From: Microbacterium murale
Lineage (GTDB): Bacteria; Actinomycetota; Actinomycetes; Actinomycetales; Microbacteriaceae
NCBI RefSeq assembly: GCF_030815955.1
Contig: NZ_JAUSXK010000001.1
Location: 434,001-498,000, forward strand
Direction of reading: 5' to 3'
DNA length: 64,000 nt
Shown: in pieces, positions 9,830 to 53,245 of the stretch
How positions within the stretch are numbered: the stretch's first letter is position 1
Layout: every line of letters starts with the position of its first letter
Translations under genes and position numbers: made by a program
Notes under the pieces: generated by a model
What the model saw: only the letters and a program-made list of their open reading frames with translations
Databases searched by the model: none
What the model was told of the DNA's origin: nothing

Positions 9830-10633
9830 TCAGGGACGGTTGGCGGATGGTGTGTGGATGAGGGGAACGGAGTCGATGAGGCGCCTGGTGTAGGGATGCT
9901 CCGGTTGCGCGACCACGCGCCTGGTCGGACCGTCTTCCACGATGCGTCCGCGGTTGAGCACCACGAGCCGATCGCTCATGGCCGCCAGCGAGCCGATGTC
10001 GTGCGAGATCACGAGCATCGCCAGGTCGCTCCCCCGTTGATCGCGCAGCGCGATCAACGCCTGCACGACGCGGTCCCGGCTTGCGGCGTCGAGCGCACTC
10101 ACCGGTTCATCGAGCACGAGCAGCTGCGGCTCCACCACGAGAGCTCTGGCGATGGCAGCACGCTGTCGTTGCCCTCCTGAGAGACCGGACGGCAGCCGGG
10201 CGATGAGGTCTTCGTCGAGTCCGACGGCCTCGAGCGCCGCCGCGCGGCGACGGGCAGCATCCGCCGGCGGCACCTTGGCGATGCGCAAGCCCTCCACGAT
10301 GGAGTCGGCGACTGCGACGCCAGGATCCAGTGAGCGCAGCGGATCCTGGAACACGTACTGCACTGCGCCGGAGCGGCGCCAGGCGCGCAGTGCTCCGCCG
10401 CGCAACTTGGTGACGTCGCGCCCTGCCACGTTCACGCGTCCCTCTGCGGGTGCGACTGCACGCAGCACCGTGCGCGCGAGAGTCGTCTTGCCCGATCCCG
10501 ATTCGCCGACAACGCCGACGACCTCTCCGCGGCGCACGGTCAGGGAGATGTCGTCGAGCACTCTCACCTGACCGAAATCGACGGAGATCGAATCGAGGTG
10601 AAGAACGGAATCGACCGCGGGTTGAGACGTCAT
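9830..10633 (-). CDS. Oligopeptide-type ABC transporter ATP-binding protein (DppF-like)
   Basis: A 267-residue ABC ATPase with Walker A GESGSGKT, signature LSGGQRQRAAIARAL, Walker B LLVLDEPVSALD and switch His in VISHD. The C-terminal PTRRVVAQPEHPYTRRLI is the peptide/nickel transporter family ending (oligo_HPY region), which binds no extra cofactor but marks DppF/OppF. It overlaps the upstream ATPase gene by ATGA at 10630-10633. It is the partner of the DppD-like ATPase in a heterodimer. Confidence 0.92.
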   Translation of the reverse strand: MTSQPAVDSVLHLDSISVDFGQVRVLDDISLTVRRGEVVGVVGESGSGKTTLARTVLRAVAPAEGRVNVAGRDVTKLRGGALRAWRRSGAVQYVFQDPLRSLDPGVAVADSIVEGLRIAKVPPADAARRRAAALEAVGLDEDLIARLPSGLSGGQRQRAAIARALVVEPQLLVLDEPVSALDAASRDRVVQALIALRDQRGSDLAMLVISHDIGSLAAMSDRLVVLNRGRIVEDGPTRRVVAQPEHPYTRRLIDSVPLIHTPSANRP

Positions 10634-48646: not shown

Positions 48647-50806
48647 CTACGGCACTGTGATCGTGTTGCCCGGGCCGACGGTCACGGCATTCTCGGCGAA
48701 GTCACGGCGACCTCGCTCGTTCATGAGTTCGGCCGCCCGAGTGTCGGGGTCGGGCATGGGCACGCCGTCGTCGTAGCCGAACCGGACGGAGTGGAGTTGT
48801 CCGTCGATCATCGTCCCGTCGGCGCGGAGCCGCACGGACAAGTAGGCGCCGTAACGCGTCGAGGCGTCGACTCCGAAGACTCCGCCGCCGCCGAAATTGC
48901 CAAGACTGTAGGCGATGAGTCGGCCGCGGTACCACTCCATGCCGCGCAGCACGTGCGGTCCATGACCGATGACAAGGTCCGCGCCCGTGTCGATGGCTGC
49001 GTGGGCGAACGCGACCGGATCGCCGCGGTTTTCGCCGTACATGTATTCGGTGCCGGGCGTCACGACATCCGCGGCAGCGCCTTCGGCGCCCATGTGCGCC
49101 TGCACGACCACGATGTCCGCATGTTCGGTGGCGGTGCGCACGATCGAGCGCACGTGGCGCAAGTCGGTGACCCGGTTGAAGTCCGCATACGGCGCGAACC
49201 CGATCATCGCAACGGTGACGTCGCCCACCTGAGTGTATTCGATCTCATCGCGGTCGCCCACGGTGCGGATGCCGACGGCGTCGAGTGCGGCTCGCGTCTT
49301 CTCGTACCCCGCCTGCCCGAAGTCGCGACTGTGGTTGTTCGCAAGGTTCAGGATGTCGAACCCGACCAGACCTTCGGCTGCGACGGGGTCGCTGCGGAAG
49401 GCGAAGCAATCTGAACTCTGTCCGCATTTGTCGTATCCCGTGTCCGGGGAGATCGCCTGCTCCAGATTTCCGGTGACGATGTCCTGTGTGAACCATGGGC
49501 GCACGCTCTCGAAGTGGCTGGCGCCGTGGTCGGCCGGGACTGCGTGTCCGACGTCGTAGAGCAGGATGTCGCCCACGGCCCCGATGCTGACCTCCCCGGC
49601 GCGCGAAGCGGGCTGGGTCGTGATCTCGGAGGTGTGGGGCGGCACCGCTGCGGCACTGGTTGCCGAGATGCCGATCGCCGCGAGGATGAGGATCATCGCC
49701 GGGGTGCGCCACGGGAGACGATGCGCAGGGCGGTGCACGTCACCCGCCCTGGCAGGTGGCCGCGTCAGCCGGCGAGCGGGCAGGTCGAGCAGCCAGGACA
49801 GCCGATCACGGGAGATGAAGTCGCCGATCGCCGCGCTGACGGCGATGACGACCGTGGTGAGCACGACGGGAAGCAGGACGGCAGCGATCAGTTGCACGGC
49901 CATCCTGGCATCCGAGATCCAACCCACCAGCACGGCATCCGCAAGAGCGAGGACGGGCATGTGGATGACGTAGATCGGAAGCGTCCGCCTGCCAAGCCAG
50001 GCCAGGCCCCGCCCGAGCTGCGCGACCTCAGCCAGCAGGGGTGCGATCGCGACCCCTGCGGCGACGCCGAGCAGCGAGACGGCGAGCCAGACGCCGGGTA
50101 CCGTCTCCAGTCCCACGACCCGTACGACTGCGAAGGCTGCCAGGTAGACCATGAGGGACGCCGCCGCGAAGCGCGGACGGACGCGAGAGGCGAATCGGCG
50201 GATCTGTGTCGAGAAGCGGGTGCCGATCAGGAAGAAGAGCAGGTTGGCGATCAGTGAGCCTCGGTTGCTCACGATGTCGATGAGACCCGCTGCGACCGCG
50301 ACGGACAGCGCCGCAGCACCGGTGAGCAGAAGCCATGACGGCAGTCGCCGCAGCCCCTTGGCCACGATGAAGTACAGGGCGAGCGCGTAGAGGTACCAGA
50401 CATTCGGCGGGCTGATCGTCACGGCTTCTATGAACTCGGCCACGCTGCGTGGGACAAGGGTGGGGAAATCGGGAAACGCCCAGAGCGCCGCCGTATGGAT
50501 GAGTGTCCACAGCACGTACAGATACAGGTAGCGCACGACGCGCCCCCGGAAGCACGCGGCCCAGGACCGCTCGACCGCACTCGCGGCGAAGCAGCCGGAG
50601 ATGAGGAAGAAGAGCGGCATCCGCACCGGGTAGGTGACGTCGGCGATCACGCCCCAGACCCCGGGGATGGGGACACCGATGCGCCAGTCGATCTGCAGGT
50701 AGGTCTTCAATACGACATGCCAGAAGACGACGAGGATGATCAGCAGGCCTTTAGCTGTGTCCGCCCAGGCCAGTCGGGCACCAGGGCCCGCCGCAGGGCC
50801 GATCAC
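48647..50806 (-). CDS. Fusion of acyltransferase-3 membrane domain with CapA-type phosphatase domain
   Basis: A 719-residue protein with two parts. Residues 1-345 are an acyltransferase-3/WecH-like integral membrane domain of about ten helices (LAWADTAKGLLIILVVFWHV; VRMPLFFLISGCF; NVWYLYALALYFIVAKG; RRTLPIYVIHMPVLAL). A further helix (MILILAAIGISATSAAA, about 370-387) leads to an extracellular CapA/PgsA-like domain, residues 405-719: GAVGDILLYD, VTGNLEQAI, LNLANNHSRDFG, VVVQAHMGAE, VIGHGPHVLRG and AYSLGNFGG. CapA proteins belong to poly-gamma-glutamate or capsule systems. It begins at GTG 50806 in a GTGA overlap with the ligase gene, so it is co-translated with D-alanine enzymes. Substrate unknown. 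Confidence 0.88.
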   Translation of the reverse strand: MIGPAAGPGARLAWADTAKGLLIILVVFWHVVLKTYLQIDWRIGVPIPGVWGVIADVTYPVRMPLFFLISGCFAASAVERSWAACFRGRVVRYLYLYVLWTLIHTAALWAFPDFPTLVPRSVAEFIEAVTISPPNVWYLYALALYFIVAKGLRRLPSWLLLTGAAALSVAVAAGLIDIVSNRGSLIANLLFFLIGTRFSTQIRRFASRVRPRFAAASLMVYLAAFAVVRVVGLETVPGVWLAVSLLGVAAGVAIAPLLAEVAQLGRGLAWLGRRTLPIYVIHMPVLALADAVLVGWISDARMAVQLIAAVLLPVVLTTVVIAVSAAIGDFISRDRLSWLLDLPARRLTRPPARAGDVHRPAHRLPWRTPAMILILAAIGISATSAAAVPPHTSEITTQPASRAGEVSIGAVGDILLYDVGHAVPADHGASHFESVRPWFTQDIVTGNLEQAISPDTGYDKCGQSSDCFAFRSDPVAAEGLVGFDILNLANNHSRDFGQAGYEKTRAALDAVGIRTVGDRDEIEYTQVGDVTVAMIGFAPYADFNRVTDLRHVRSIVRTATEHADIVVVQAHMGAEGAAADVVTPGTEYMYGENRGDPVAFAHAAIDTGADLVIGHGPHVLRGMEWYRGRLIAYSLGNFGGGGVFGVDASTRYGAYLSVRLRADGTMIDGQLHSVRFGYDDGVPMPDPDTRAAELMNERGRRDFAENAVTVGPGNTITVP

Positions 50807-51807
50807 TCAGGCTGCCCGATCGGCGCGAGTACCGCACCCTGCTGCGGCCGATGCCCGACGGCGTGAAGGAGCTCGGCGATGAATCCGGCGTAGTCGAGGC
50901 CGGTCGCCGCATACATCAAAGGCACCTGGGACCGTTCGGTCATCCCGGGTGCGGTGTTCACCTCGTTGAGCACAGGGCCTCGGTCGGTGAGGAAGAAATC
51001 GAAGCGTGCCACACCGGCGCACCCGAGCCCCTCGTACATCAGCACGGCCGCGTGACGGATCGCCGTCTCGTCGGCGTCGCTGATCGGCGCGGGCACAGTG
51101 AACTTCGCACTGCCGTCGTACTTCTCCGCTGCGCCGAACACGCTGCCAGGGGTGACGCCGATCTCGAGTGCGGCCCCGAAGCGCAGTACGCCGTGACGAT
51201 CGCGGAAGACCGCGATGTCCACTTCCCTCCCGGCCACGTACTCCTCGATCAGCACGGTGTCGCCGAACACCCGTGCCCGGCTCACCGCCTGGGCGACGCC
51301 GTTCGGATCGGCGACGACGAAGACGCCGTTGCTGGAACCGCCGGCTGCGGGCTTGACGACGAACGGAGGTTGCAGGCCCATCACAGCGGCATCGATTCCT
51401 GGCCTGGCGACCCGCGCCTTCGCCGTCGCGATGCCGAGCGATTCGGCGATCAGTTTCGTGGCGTGCTTATCCATCCCGAGCGCCCCGGCGCGCACTGGAG
51501 AGCCCGCGTAGGGGACGCCGCACAGTTCGAGCAGGCCCGCGATCGCACCGTCCTCACCACCGACTCCGTGCAGCACGGGAAACGCGATGTCACAGCCGGT
51601 GAGCGTCTCGACGGCGCGATACGCGGGCAGAACGGTGCCGTGCTCGTCCTGCCAGGATCCGTCTTCGCCGATGCTCAGCGGGACAGCCGTGTGGTTCAGC
51701 TCGCGGATCGCGCGAACGACGGAGGCAGCGGATGCGCGGGAGACGGCGTGCTCGTCATTCGAGCCACCACCGACGACGGCGATCCGAATGGGCGTGGACT
51801 GTGACAT
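50803..51807 (-). CDS. D-alanine--D-alanine ligase family protein (D-Ala-D-X ligase)
   Basis: A 334-residue ATP-grasp ligase from ATG 51807, with AAGGAG 9 bases upstream. Motifs: HGVGGEDGAIAGLLELCGVP (substrate 1), PPFVVKPAAGGSSNGV (ATP), IEEYVAGREVDIAV, the omega-loop region VFGAAEKYDGSAKFTVPA, ARFDFFLTDRGPVLNEVNTAPGMTERS with metal ligands. The EKY triplet and NEVNT segment recall VanC/VanG-type D-Ala-D-Ser ligases as well as ordinary Ddl, so the second substrate is open. Its start lies 112 bases inside the alanine racemase frame and its stop overlaps the acyltransferase-CapA gene. Confidence 0.88.
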   Translation of the reverse strand: MSQSTPIRIAVVGGGSNDEHAVSRASAASVVRAIRELNHTAVPLSIGEDGSWQDEHGTVLPAYRAVETLTGCDIAFPVLHGVGGEDGAIAGLLELCGVPYAGSPVRAGALGMDKHATKLIAESLGIATAKARVARPGIDAAVMGLQPPFVVKPAAGGSSNGVFVVADPNGVAQAVSRARVFGDTVLIEEYVAGREVDIAVFRDRHGVLRFGAALEIGVTPGSVFGAAEKYDGSAKFTVPAPISDADETAIRHAAVLMYEGLGCAGVARFDFFLTDRGPVLNEVNTAPGMTERSQVPLMYAATGLDYAGFIAELLHAVGHRPQQGAVLAPIGQPE

Positions 51808-52955
51808 GAGGTGTCTCCTTGCAGCTGGTGCGATTCGCGCTGTGTCGCGTCGAGGGTGCGGTGAATGCGATGGGCGCGGGTGCCGACGCGGGTGAGCATC
51901 TCGTGTTCGATCGTGTGCGACCATTCGGCCCACTCCGCGACGGTGGGCTCGCCGTCCCGTCCGGGGCCGAAGATCGTCACCGTCTCGCCGGGCTGCAGCA
52001 GTTCGTCGCCGGTGTCGACGACGACCATGTCCATCGAGATCCTGCCCACCAACGAGCGCCGCCTGCCTCGTGCGAACACCTGCGCCCGCCCGGACGCGGC
52101 GCGGGGAAGACCATCGCCGTACCCGATAGGCAGGAGCACCAGATGGGTGCGGGCCGGTGTGGTGAAGTCATGCCCGTAGCCCACACCGGTGCCCGCCGCC
52201 ACCTCGCGGGAGGACACGACCGTCGAGGTCAGGGTCAGCGCGGGCTGCAGGAAGTCGGTCGTGCGGGACGGATCGACCCCGAAGAGACCCGCGCCGATCC
52301 GATGGATACCGAACCCGCTTCCCTCACCTGTCAGCGTCGCCGCGGTCGCGGCGAGATGGAGCATGTGCGGGTTCAGAGCGCGGCGTCTGGCAGTGCGCAC
52401 CGCATTCTCGAAGACCAGGCGTTCGCGCGCGTTCTGCGGATTGCCCGGGTCATCCGCGCACGACATGTGCCCCATCACCCCGACCACACGGATGATGCCG
52501 GCCGCCTCGTACTCTCGCGCGAGCGTGCACAGCGCCGGCCAGTCGCGTGCCGCGCAGCCGTCCCGGCCGATACCTACGTCGATGTGCAGATGCACCCGTG
52601 CCGTTGTTCCCGCGTGCCGTGCCGCCCTGGCGACGGCGTACAGCAGTTCGAGACTCGGTACGGCCAGTTCGATGCGCTCGCGCAGTGCCGTCTCGAAGTC
52701 CGCGTCCAGGGTGTTGAGCCAGCTCAGGATCGGGGAATCGATGCCCACTGCACGCAGCGCGAGCGCCTCGTCGATGCAGGTCACGCCGATCGAGCCCGCC
52801 CCGGACTCGAGCACCGAGCGAGCGACGTCCCCGTGCCCGAATGCGTCAGCCTTGAGGACGGCCATGAGCCGTCCCCCGGTCAATGCGTGAAATCGCTTGG
52901 TGTTCTCACGGATCGCATCGTCATGGACGATGAGTTCCGAGGCGGGTGATCGCAT
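51696..52955 (-). CDS. alr: Alanine racemase
   Basis: A 419-residue fold-type III PLP racemase. The PLP Lys is in MAVLKADAFGHGD near residue 35 (Tyr of the usual KADAYGHG is Phe), VHLHIDVGIGRDG, GVMGHMSCADDP, the catalytic Tyr in TGVGYGHDF, LLPIGYGDGLPR and VGRISMDMVVVD. Usual length is about 370; the frame here runs some 37 codons into the downstream ligase gene because no stop occurs in any of the three frames near the expected end. It supplies D-alanine for cell wall synthesis, or possibly another D-amino acid. A palindrome lies 35 bases upstream. Confidence 0.92.
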   Translation of the reverse strand: MRSPASELIVHDDAIRENTKRFHALTGGRLMAVLKADAFGHGDVARSVLESGAGSIGVTCIDEALALRAVGIDSPILSWLNTLDADFETALRERIELAVPSLELLYAVARAARHAGTTARVHLHIDVGIGRDGCAARDWPALCTLAREYEAAGIIRVVGVMGHMSCADDPGNPQNARERLVFENAVRTARRRALNPHMLHLAATAATLTGEGSGFGIHRIGAGLFGVDPSRTTDFLQPALTLTSTVVSSREVAAGTGVGYGHDFTTPARTHLVLLPIGYGDGLPRAASGRAQVFARGRRRSLVGRISMDMVVVDTGDELLQPGETVTIFGPGRDGEPTVAEWAEWSHTIEHEMLTRVGTRAHRIHRTLDATQRESHQLQGDTSCHSPRPFGSPSSVVARMTSTPSPAHPLPPSFARSAS

Positions 52956-52989
52956 GGGATCAAGTCAAATGATCAGCGTGTTGCCGCAG

Positions 52990-53009
52990 CGTATCCGGAT
53001 TCGGATACG
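52990..53009. promoter_or_regulatory. Palindrome upstream of alr (candidate operator)
   Basis: CGTATCCGGATTCGGATACG is an inverted repeat of 8 bp with a 4-base centre, 35 bases upstream of the alr start. It stands alone in the 217-base gap between alr and the tRNA and may control the alr-ddl-CapA operon. Confidence 0.55.
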
Positions 53010-53122
53010 GAAACGATATGAGGCCTGGGCGCACCGACTGCACGCGCTTCGCGGTCGCGGTATGCAGTGGGCTTCCGCCTCGATGCCGGGCCGCACGAAA
53101 CACGACAGGCCCCGCGGAAACA

Positions 53123-53152
53123 GAACAGGCCCCGCCGAAGCGGAGCCTGTTC
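53123..53152 (-). terminator. Terminator of tRNA-Ala
   Basis: On the minus strand GAACAGGC and GCCTGTTC (53123-53130, 53145-53152) close a hairpin with an inner CGC-TTCG-GCG stem-loop, followed by TGTTT. It starts 21 bases after the tRNA 3' end. An imperfect copy of the left arm (ACAGGCCCCGC) precedes it at 53105-53115. Confidence 0.75.
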
Positions 53153-53172
53153 TTCACTGTCTCAACACAGTG

Positions 53173-53245
53173 TGGACCTAAGGGGATTCGAACCCCTGAC
53201 CTCCTCGATGCGAACGAGGCGCGCTACCAACTGCGCCATAGGCCC
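53173..53245 (-). tRNA. tRNA-Ala (anticodon CGC)
   Basis: A 73-base cloverleaf: acceptor GGGCCTA/TAGGTCC with the G3-U70 wobble pair that identifies alanine tRNA, D-arm GCGC...GCGC, anticodon stem CCTCG/CGAGG with loop TTCGCAT (anticodon CGC, codon GCG), five-base variable loop, T-arm AGGGG-TTCGAAT-CCCCT and discriminator A. CCA is not encoded. Confidence 0.97.

Follow-up and report, generated by a model that had tools for sequence, protein, structure and literature searches.

Three genes in the 64-kb window analyzed here, a stretch of the Microbacterium murale genome, probably serve as effectors in a glycopeptide-type response under VanRS control, a reading to which we give a probability of about 70%. 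They encode an alanine racemase-family protein (alr), a D-Ala-D-X ligase-family protein (ddl) and a protein in which an acyltransferase-3 (AT3) membrane domain is joined to a CapA domain (AT3-CapA). The assignment comes from sequence comparison and is made because the putative operator upstream of alr is common to the vanR|vanY region of the same genome and to vanHAX-type, vanZ and vanY promoters of relatives, because the three genes directly follow vanRS-vanY in two other genera, and because alr and ddl are here an extra set. The operon would add to the van family an effector operon not found in the literature searched, and the operator that ties it to vanRS can be searched for in Microbacteriaceae genomes. 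Positions 48647-53245 below are those of the 64-kb window; coordinates preceded by C1 refer to the genome contig (4.11 Mb, one contig), and G000 is the window genome.

51696..52955, minus strand: alr, alanine-racemase family, 419 residues, by Pfam and model scores; the last ~55 residues extend beyond the family end, into ddl
50803..51807, minus strand: ddl, D-Ala-D-X ligase family, 334 residues, S-Q class (see below); ATG start at 51807 with AAGGAG upstream, and not the mechanical open reading frame start at 51933
48647..50806, minus strand: AT3-CapA fusion, 719 residues, GTG start, by Pfam, alignment and structure model
49838..50770, minus strand: Acyl_transf_3 (AT3) membrane domain of the fusion, residues 13-323, by Pfam, with K19-x10-H30 and R89xxR92
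49652..49708, minus strand: linking helix of the fusion, residues 367-385, a predicted 11th membrane helix by the model, its topology by analogy with AT3-SGNH proteins
48893..49585, minus strand: PGA_cap (CapA) domain of the fusion, residues 408-638, predicted extracytoplasmic, by Pfam, alignment, structure model and fold match
52980..53018, minus strand: putative VanR operator, 39 bp, separated by 24 bp from the start codon of alr, with a single further exact match elsewhere in the genome
53172..53245, minus strand: tRNA-Ala (CGC) adjoining the operon, kept in congeners, with other DNA after it there

The head-to-tail arrangement of the three genes on one strand, with overlaps of 112 bases (alr/ddl) and 4 bases (ddl/fusion), had been described in a first-pass annotation of the window and was borne out by an open reading frame and Pfam check, which found Ala_racemase_N/C in the first product and Dala_Dala_lig_N/C in the second. 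The long overlap arises because alr extends about 55 residues past the end of its family. Leifsonia sp. ALI-44-B (L012) has the identical gene order, an alr also of 419 residues and the identical 112-base overlap; two Agromyces alr copies have 379 residues, and in one of the Agromyces loci (L015) the alr/ddl overlap is 4 bases.

A common putative operator links the operon to vanRS

The putative operator is an ungapped motif of 39 bp derived from eleven upstream sites and searched with the pattern TATCNNNNNNRTATNNNNNNNNNNNWACNNNNNSKYAAC. This pattern has 47 sites in 39 of 299 Microbacteriaceae genomes, and the reversed pattern, used as a control, has 0 matches. The window genome contains exactly two exact sites, one before alr and the other in the vanR|vanY region (C1:2067961-2067999, 23 bp before the vanY start codon), 1.6 Mb from the operon, where vanS-vanR is divergent from vanY (C1 ~2.066-2.069 Mb; L103 8148-10695); allowing two mismatches adds two more, seemingly unrelated sites. 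Among all models, the products of these genes score best on VanR-O (433.8 bits), VanS-O (371.4 bits) and VanY-N (63.6 bits). By sequence, both marks of a VanRS-controlled regulon are thus present, a putative operator at the promoter and vanRS in the genome. A VanY match occurs in 33 of the 39 genomes with the motif versus 26 of the 260 others (p 7.7e-22), and in 27 of 33 versus 26 of 260 once the six genomes of this set that served to derive the motif are removed (p 5.5e-18), p values that take no account of kinship between genomes. The operator before the genes in question could also be followed in eleven extra stretches, which hold 14 sites, 12 of them assigned. Ten of these 12 lie before vanY, vanHAX-type, VanZ or D,D-carboxypeptidase genes (one by likeness), as listed here with bit scores against cut-offs:

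L220, L221, L227: before vanY
L220: before a vanHAX-type operon (VanH 469 against 540, D-Ala-D-Lac ligase 575.8 against 550, VanX 372.7 against 320)
L223: before a vanHAX-type operon (VanH 498.6 against 540, ligase 575.5 against 550)
L225, L229: before vanHAX-type operons by similarity, the L229 ligase also by tree
L227: before a VanZ gene
L228: before a near copy of this VanZ gene, by likeness only
L224: before an S11 D-Ala-D-Ala carboxypeptidase gene
L222 (5106), L226 (8150): before small lipoprotein and ABC-transporter-like genes, by eye

The targets in L222 and L226 are possible further members of the regulon; the two sites without assignment are in L221 and L230, and the site in genome G015 looks like a chance occurrence. 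A two-mismatch site is found in L012 (~10155-10193) directly before the gene of a DUF418 membrane protein, downstream of AT3-CapA.

The alr and ddl genes of the operon are an extra set

At C1:2897180 the window genome has a second alr, whose Pfam score is better than that of the operon gene. Two further, tandem alr-like frames lie at C1:3880352 and C1:3881392 (L104, C1:3876000-3886000), and a canonical ddl, again with a better Pfam score, lies at C1:3649331. The search for other copies that the first-pass annotation had recommended therefore found both genes; the pair in the operon is accessory, and the possibility that these are the only housekeeping alr and ddl is ruled out by the other copies. 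Together with the operator common to vanRS, vanY, vanZ and vanHAX-type genes, these copies lend good support to the suggestion made there that the operon is a second alr/ddl pair for glycopeptide tolerance.

Neighbors of the AT3-CapA gene in relatives

In Leifsonia sp. ALI-44-B (L012) and in L097 (genome G260), which belong to two other genera, vanRS is divergent from a vanY-alr-ddl-AT3CapA row. The L012 regulators score 421.3 bits on VanR-O and 388.7 bits on VanS-O, with next best scores of 180.4 and 161.0 and cut-offs of 505 and 720. Full-length fusions are present in six of the 69 named AT3 loci, namely L012, L013 and L015 (Agromyces), L014 and L016 (Mycetocola) and L017 (Microbacterium oxydans), and alr and ddl adjoin them in three (L012, L013, L015). 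Consecutive locus tags in Leifsonia sp. Leaf336 (ASF88_09915 and ASF88_09920) also carry the names of a fusion and of one of the nearest ligases. Of 77 fusion clusters compared, 16, that of the window genome among them, come from an assembly whose longest contig equals in length that of one of the 120 nearest ligases, an agreement in length alone. Within the 299 Microbacteriaceae genomes the fusion is matched in nine, of which G225 and G175 match one half only, leaving seven with both halves; all seven fall within the 59 genomes with a VanY match (p 8.6e-6), although they are not independent, three of them (G098, G160, G210) being of one genus, Mycetocola. The fusion has alr as a neighbor in four of the seven (G000, G115, G260, G288) and ddl as a neighbor in three, and a VanR-like gene stands beside VanY in six. 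In the three Mycetocola genomes there is no alr or ddl in a 19.9-kb stretch around the fusion, and vanRS-vanY lies elsewhere in the genome; the solitary AT3-CapA genes carry the same operator as vanY on different contigs. The Mycetocola contigs with vanY (G098:C3, G160:C20 and G210:C17; L164, L162 and L163) end within ~1 kb beyond this gene, and the VanY matches of G160 and G210 have one in-frame stop each.

At a wider range, 35 of the 69 AT3 loci have a ddl, alr, PALP, VanX or VanY match at most 5 kb from AT3 (that of L077 is a weak 29% PALP match), and five have, within the probed genes, CapA or a two-component system only. Several layouts recur, including AT3-alr-ddl in 15 Micromonospora loci, vanRS-AT3-PALP-ddl-VanX in 8 Micromonospora loci, and, in three Promicromonospora loci, ddl-AT3 with a divergent alr, accompanied by CapA and VanX; five clusters of AT3-PALP fusions were noted among those listed. 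The first-pass comparison with VanT, in which an AT3 membrane domain is combined with a racemase next to a ligase gene, is well supported by the other alr and ddl copies of the genome and by the operator common to van genes. Its warning that the parts might occur apart from alr/ddl in relatives holds for the remaining 29 AT3 loci, which have none of the probed genes within 5 kb, and for the three Mycetocola fusions, which stand alone, but the Mycetocola copies carry the operator. In L020 two adjacent genes, and not a fusion, lie beside alr, the first without a Pfam match, and the VanX matches of L024 (70.3 and 49.4 bits) are below the cut-offs.

The AT3-CapA fusion protein

The fusion is genuine but sporadic across Microbacteriaceae. 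The protein scores 90.1 bits on Acyl_transf_3 (PF01757; cut-off 31), which places it in the AT3 family. As the first-pass annotation had stated, AT3 and CapA are joined in one 719-residue protein: both Pfam domains lie in one frame, and they do so in 78 clusters (P0001-P0077 and P0085) among the 120 listed of the 139 protein clusters found to be related to the fusion. A misassembly is ruled out by these clusters and by the equal layout of L012. In a 60-sequence alignment, residues invariant or at least 90% kept include K19, H30, R89 and R92 in the AT3 part, D413, N447-E449, N490-H492, D495, H571, E575 and G614-H618 in the CapA part, and C461 and C467. An AlphaFold2 model (predicted local distance difference test, pLDDT, 85.1; predicted template modeling score, pTM, 0.82) shows a bundle of helices, followed by an isolated helix at 367-385 and, after it, the CapA fold. 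According to excerpts of PMC9558356 and PMC9833829, AT3-SGNH proteins use an 11th helix to place their SGNH domain outside, and because of this the CapA domain is predicted to lie outside the membrane. The fusion resembles the AT3-SGNH O-acyltransferases OatA and OafB, as far as the same excerpts describe them, in having an AT3 domain, a linking helix and a second domain predicted outside; it differs from them in having CapA where SGNH stands and Lys for Arg in the R-x10-H motif. For the CapA part, to which the Foldseek matches are confined, the nearest solved structure by sequence and by fold is the lasso-peptide epimerase MslH (Foldseek E 9e-15), a metal-dependent peptide epimerase, so that the earlier label of "phosphatase" was too firm. 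A run of three frames in Actinoplanes italicus (L043 9911-13025), one for AT3, one AT3-like but matching no Pfam family and one containing CapA, may be an unfused counterpart of AT3-CapA.

The ligase and the racemase

The position following the conserved serine of the C-terminal ligase motif, in subsite 2, is Gln in all 118 readable sequences among the 120 ligases nearest to that of the operon (the S-Q class); it is Met in canonical copies, Arg in VanA-type and Met in PALP-linked ligases. The omega loop of the operon ligase keeps a Lys-Tyr pair that is absent from three VanA-type sequences. In a phylogenetic tree, five ligases of the module group together (100/100), and the readable S-Q ligases, together with three divergent, short sequences, lie to one side of a moderately supported branch (83/93); the canonical ligase of the window genome is represented in this tree by a 133-residue fragment on a very long, uninformative branch. 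We infer an amide-forming ligase with an altered second site; that the Gln denotes D-Ser specificity is a guess. The ligase scores 200.3 bits on VanG (cut-off 495) and 198.7 on D_ala_D_ser (cut-off 520), outside the D-Ala-D-Ser ligase families, and 188.3 on the D-Ala-D-Lac ligase model (cut-off 550). The racemase scores 230.1 bits on TIGR00492 alr (cut-off 168) and 181.8 on vanT-G-Cterm (cut-off 460). Two D,D-peptidase candidates are present in the genome, a VanY-type protein encoded next to vanRS (C1:2068308) and a second PF02557 match (C1:2240028). In G288, at a place other than that of the fusion (G288:C4; L161 4107-9112), an alr and an S-Q ligase are followed by a two-component system of the NarL type (by eye) and VanY, possibly an alternative mode of regulating these two enzymes.

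Proposed mechanism and comparison with known systems

In the proposed pathway, VanS would sense the drug or damage, and VanR would turn on alr-ddl-AT3CapA together with vanY. The racemase would then provide a D-amino acid, most likely D-Ser, for the ligase to join as D-Ala-D-X via an amide bond, VanY would trim D-Ala-D-Ala pentapeptides, and the altered stem would bind vancomycin more weakly. Glycopeptide binding to D-Ala-D-Ser is 3- to 8-fold weaker, and that of vancomycin to D-Ala-D-Lac ~1000-fold weaker (excerpts of PMC8541618). For an operon of the D-Ser type, an additional step acting on this terminus would be an advantage, and AT3 with an outside CapA is a candidate for it: at the membrane, AT3-CapA would take the part that the AT3 half of VanT plays and would transfer an acyl group to the outer side, where CapA would be its partner by analogy with the SGNH domains of OatA. 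A speculative extension, which we regard as quite unlikely, is that AT3-CapA, and with it the AT3 domains of VanT and of pdx clusters, modifies the new D-hydroxy-amino-acid terminus outside the membrane, e.g., through O-acylation of the lipid II D-Ser hydroxyl. If this were true, the O-acylated terminus would be a second, additive resistance step closed to D-Ala-D-Lac operons, as a terminal lactate lacks a free hydroxyl, and it would explain the recurrence of AT3 with racemase-ligase modules of different racemase folds (Alr, PALP). The operon bears on the open question of what the AT3 half of VanT does: its role is unknown (excerpts of PMC9558356), and mutations in it raise vancomycin resistance (excerpts of PMC12423673). 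In the operon AT3 is separate from the racemase, and can therefore be deleted without touching the latter, and the CapA partner provides a second handle on what gets modified.

The closest known counterparts are the D-Ala-D-Ser resistance operons with VanT (types C, E, G, L and N), which, in the excerpts of PMC8541618 and PMC12423673, share with the present operon a racemase, a Ddl-family ligase and an AT3 domain, as well as VanRS control (probable here) and a D,D-peptidase (here a VanY-type candidate). Unlike in these operons, AT3 is here joined to CapA instead of to the racemase, which has a gene of its own, the regulators are VanR-O/VanS-O-like, vanRS-vanY lies 1.6 Mb away in the window genome, and the ligase and racemase fall outside the VanG, VanC and VanT models. 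The fusion has no match to any VanT model in a family-model scan, and membership in VanT or VanG is ruled out by the model scores and by the separate AT3 and racemase genes. Excerpts of PMC8698665 describe a pdx operon of Micromonosporales, with PALP, Ddl-like and VanX-like proteins and VanRS, for which the authors propose a D-Ala-D-Ser analogy, as well as rare vanRSY-racemase-Ddl sets; the Micrococcales layouts given there comprise vanHAX, vanZ and vanY only. These excerpts mention neither AT3 nor CapA as a gene, and "acyltransferase" appears once, in the reference list. An AT3 relative of the window fusion lies in pdx clusters, and the pdx operon, as described in the excerpts, likewise has a VanRS-linked racemase-like enzyme, a Ddl and a D,D-peptidase; the operon differs in its Alr-type racemase, its VanY-type peptidase and its AT3 fused to CapA, and pdx membership is ruled out by the lack of PALP and VanX in the operon and of PF01427 in the genome. 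With vanHAX operons of the same bacterial family it has in common the operator and VanR-O-like regulators, whereas it has no VanH, no VanX-family match in the genome and an S-Q ligase with a Lys-Tyr omega loop; vanHAX membership is ruled out by the absence of VanH from the operon and of VanX from the genome and by the D-Ala-D-Lac model score. PMC9689679 has no mention of racemase, acyltransferase, CapA, pdx or D-Ser, and a literature search (titles and abstract starts, with few subscription papers covered) indicated no AT3-CapA van operon.

Points against a D-Ser-type response and alternative explanations

Several observations weigh against the effector reading or against its D-Ser form. Gln at subsite 2 is no known D-Ser mark, the racemase has no clear serine mark, and D-Ala-D-Ala models give the ligase higher scores (246 and 241 bits) than VanG and D_ala_D_ser do, all of these scores being below cut-off. 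For the three Mycetocola genomes, the sole Ddl-like match found belongs to the S-Q class and lies beside alr in a housekeeping-looking place (L233 and L234 in G098 and G160); these ligases may or may not be housekeeping enzymes. A genome search found no VanX-type dipeptidase (PF01427) in the window genome, and VanR, VanS and VanY of this genome are below the cut-offs of their best models (505, 720 and 250, respectively). In G288, fusion and alr have no exact operator match. Eight solitary AT3 loci whose neighbors, viewed by eye, include no van genes argue against an exclusive link, and an AT3-family gene (PF01757, 89.2 bits) that lies close to the L229 vanHAX-type operon, but on the opposite strand, argues against a strict D-Ser-only rule.

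Part of this evidence would fit a VanR regulon in which the terminus stays unchanged, the spare alr and ddl boosting D-Ala-D-Ala while VanY trims stems or while a drug (D-cycloserine included) blocks the housekeeping enzymes, and AT3-CapA decorating the wall, e.g., through O-acylation of glycan. Such a regulon would account for the preference of the ligase for D-Ala-D-Ala family models, for the Mycetocola S-Q ligases, which as sole matches probably make ordinary precursors, and for the racemase passing the TIGR00492 cut-off. We nevertheless consider it unlikely, given that the operon occupies the place of vanHAX in relatives with the same operator, that D-Ala-D-Ser operons are built as a racemase-ligase pair next to vanRS and vanX/vanY, and that the ligase class differs at subsite 2 from the canonical copies of the same genomes.

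A third D-amino-acid enzyme would be present if the CapA domain were an MslH-like metal-dependent epimerase acting on the terminus of the stem peptide or of lipid II. In addition to the nearness of MslH in sequence and fold, seven of its eight active-site residues named in excerpts of PMC10406935 fall within the two aligned stretches, where six are identical (E449, N491, H492, D495, H571 and H618), and D413 is set on Asp11 of MslH by eye. The fusion shares the fold and most active-site residues with MslH and the CapA (PGA_cap) family, but scores 67.7 bits on the MslH family model against a cut-off of 700, has lost one metal ligand (His261 of MslH is Gly573 in the fusion) and is membrane-anchored. 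Membership in the MslH family is ruled out by this score, far below the cut-off, and by the incomplete metal site. The residues kept with MslH recur across much of the CapA family and are thus not diagnostic, and epimerase activity appears very improbable. A self-standing envelope or polymer module without any glycopeptide concern, which would produce or export some D-amino-acid compound or else alter a capsule, the motif being a general cell-wall stress site, could draw on the 29 AT3 loci without a probed van-type gene, the operator sites in L222 and L226 and the role of CapA proteins in poly-gamma-glutamate synthesis elsewhere, but is hardly probable at all against the 10 of 12 assigned operator sites before van-type and D,D-carboxypeptidase genes and with no capsule genes seen by eye near the operon, in a genome not searched for them. 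Two earlier suggestions, export of a D-amino-acid dipeptide and a poly-gamma-glutamate role, likewise found no support, with no genome-wide search made for either; a look by eye at the neighbors of the operon showed nothing that pointed to poly-gamma-glutamate synthesis.

Genomic site

The operon was likely acquired at a variable spot beside the tRNA-Ala gene, judging from the sequences of congeners. None of the five congeners within the 299-genome draw has the fusion, and an order-wide search of 396 genomes gave, besides the window genome itself, one 43% match to the AT3 half (G563, one of the 17 congeners listed). A clean empty site at tRNA-Ala was sought in six congener stretches and not found; in these the tRNA and its preceding gene are conserved, while the DNA after the tRNA varies, and in three of them iclR-hutH follows the tRNA at 3.7, 6.0 and 5.1 kb, versus 8.2 kb in the window genome. 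Synteny followed through the downstream metallophosphoesterase gave 42-45% matches alone, in six of 18 congeners.

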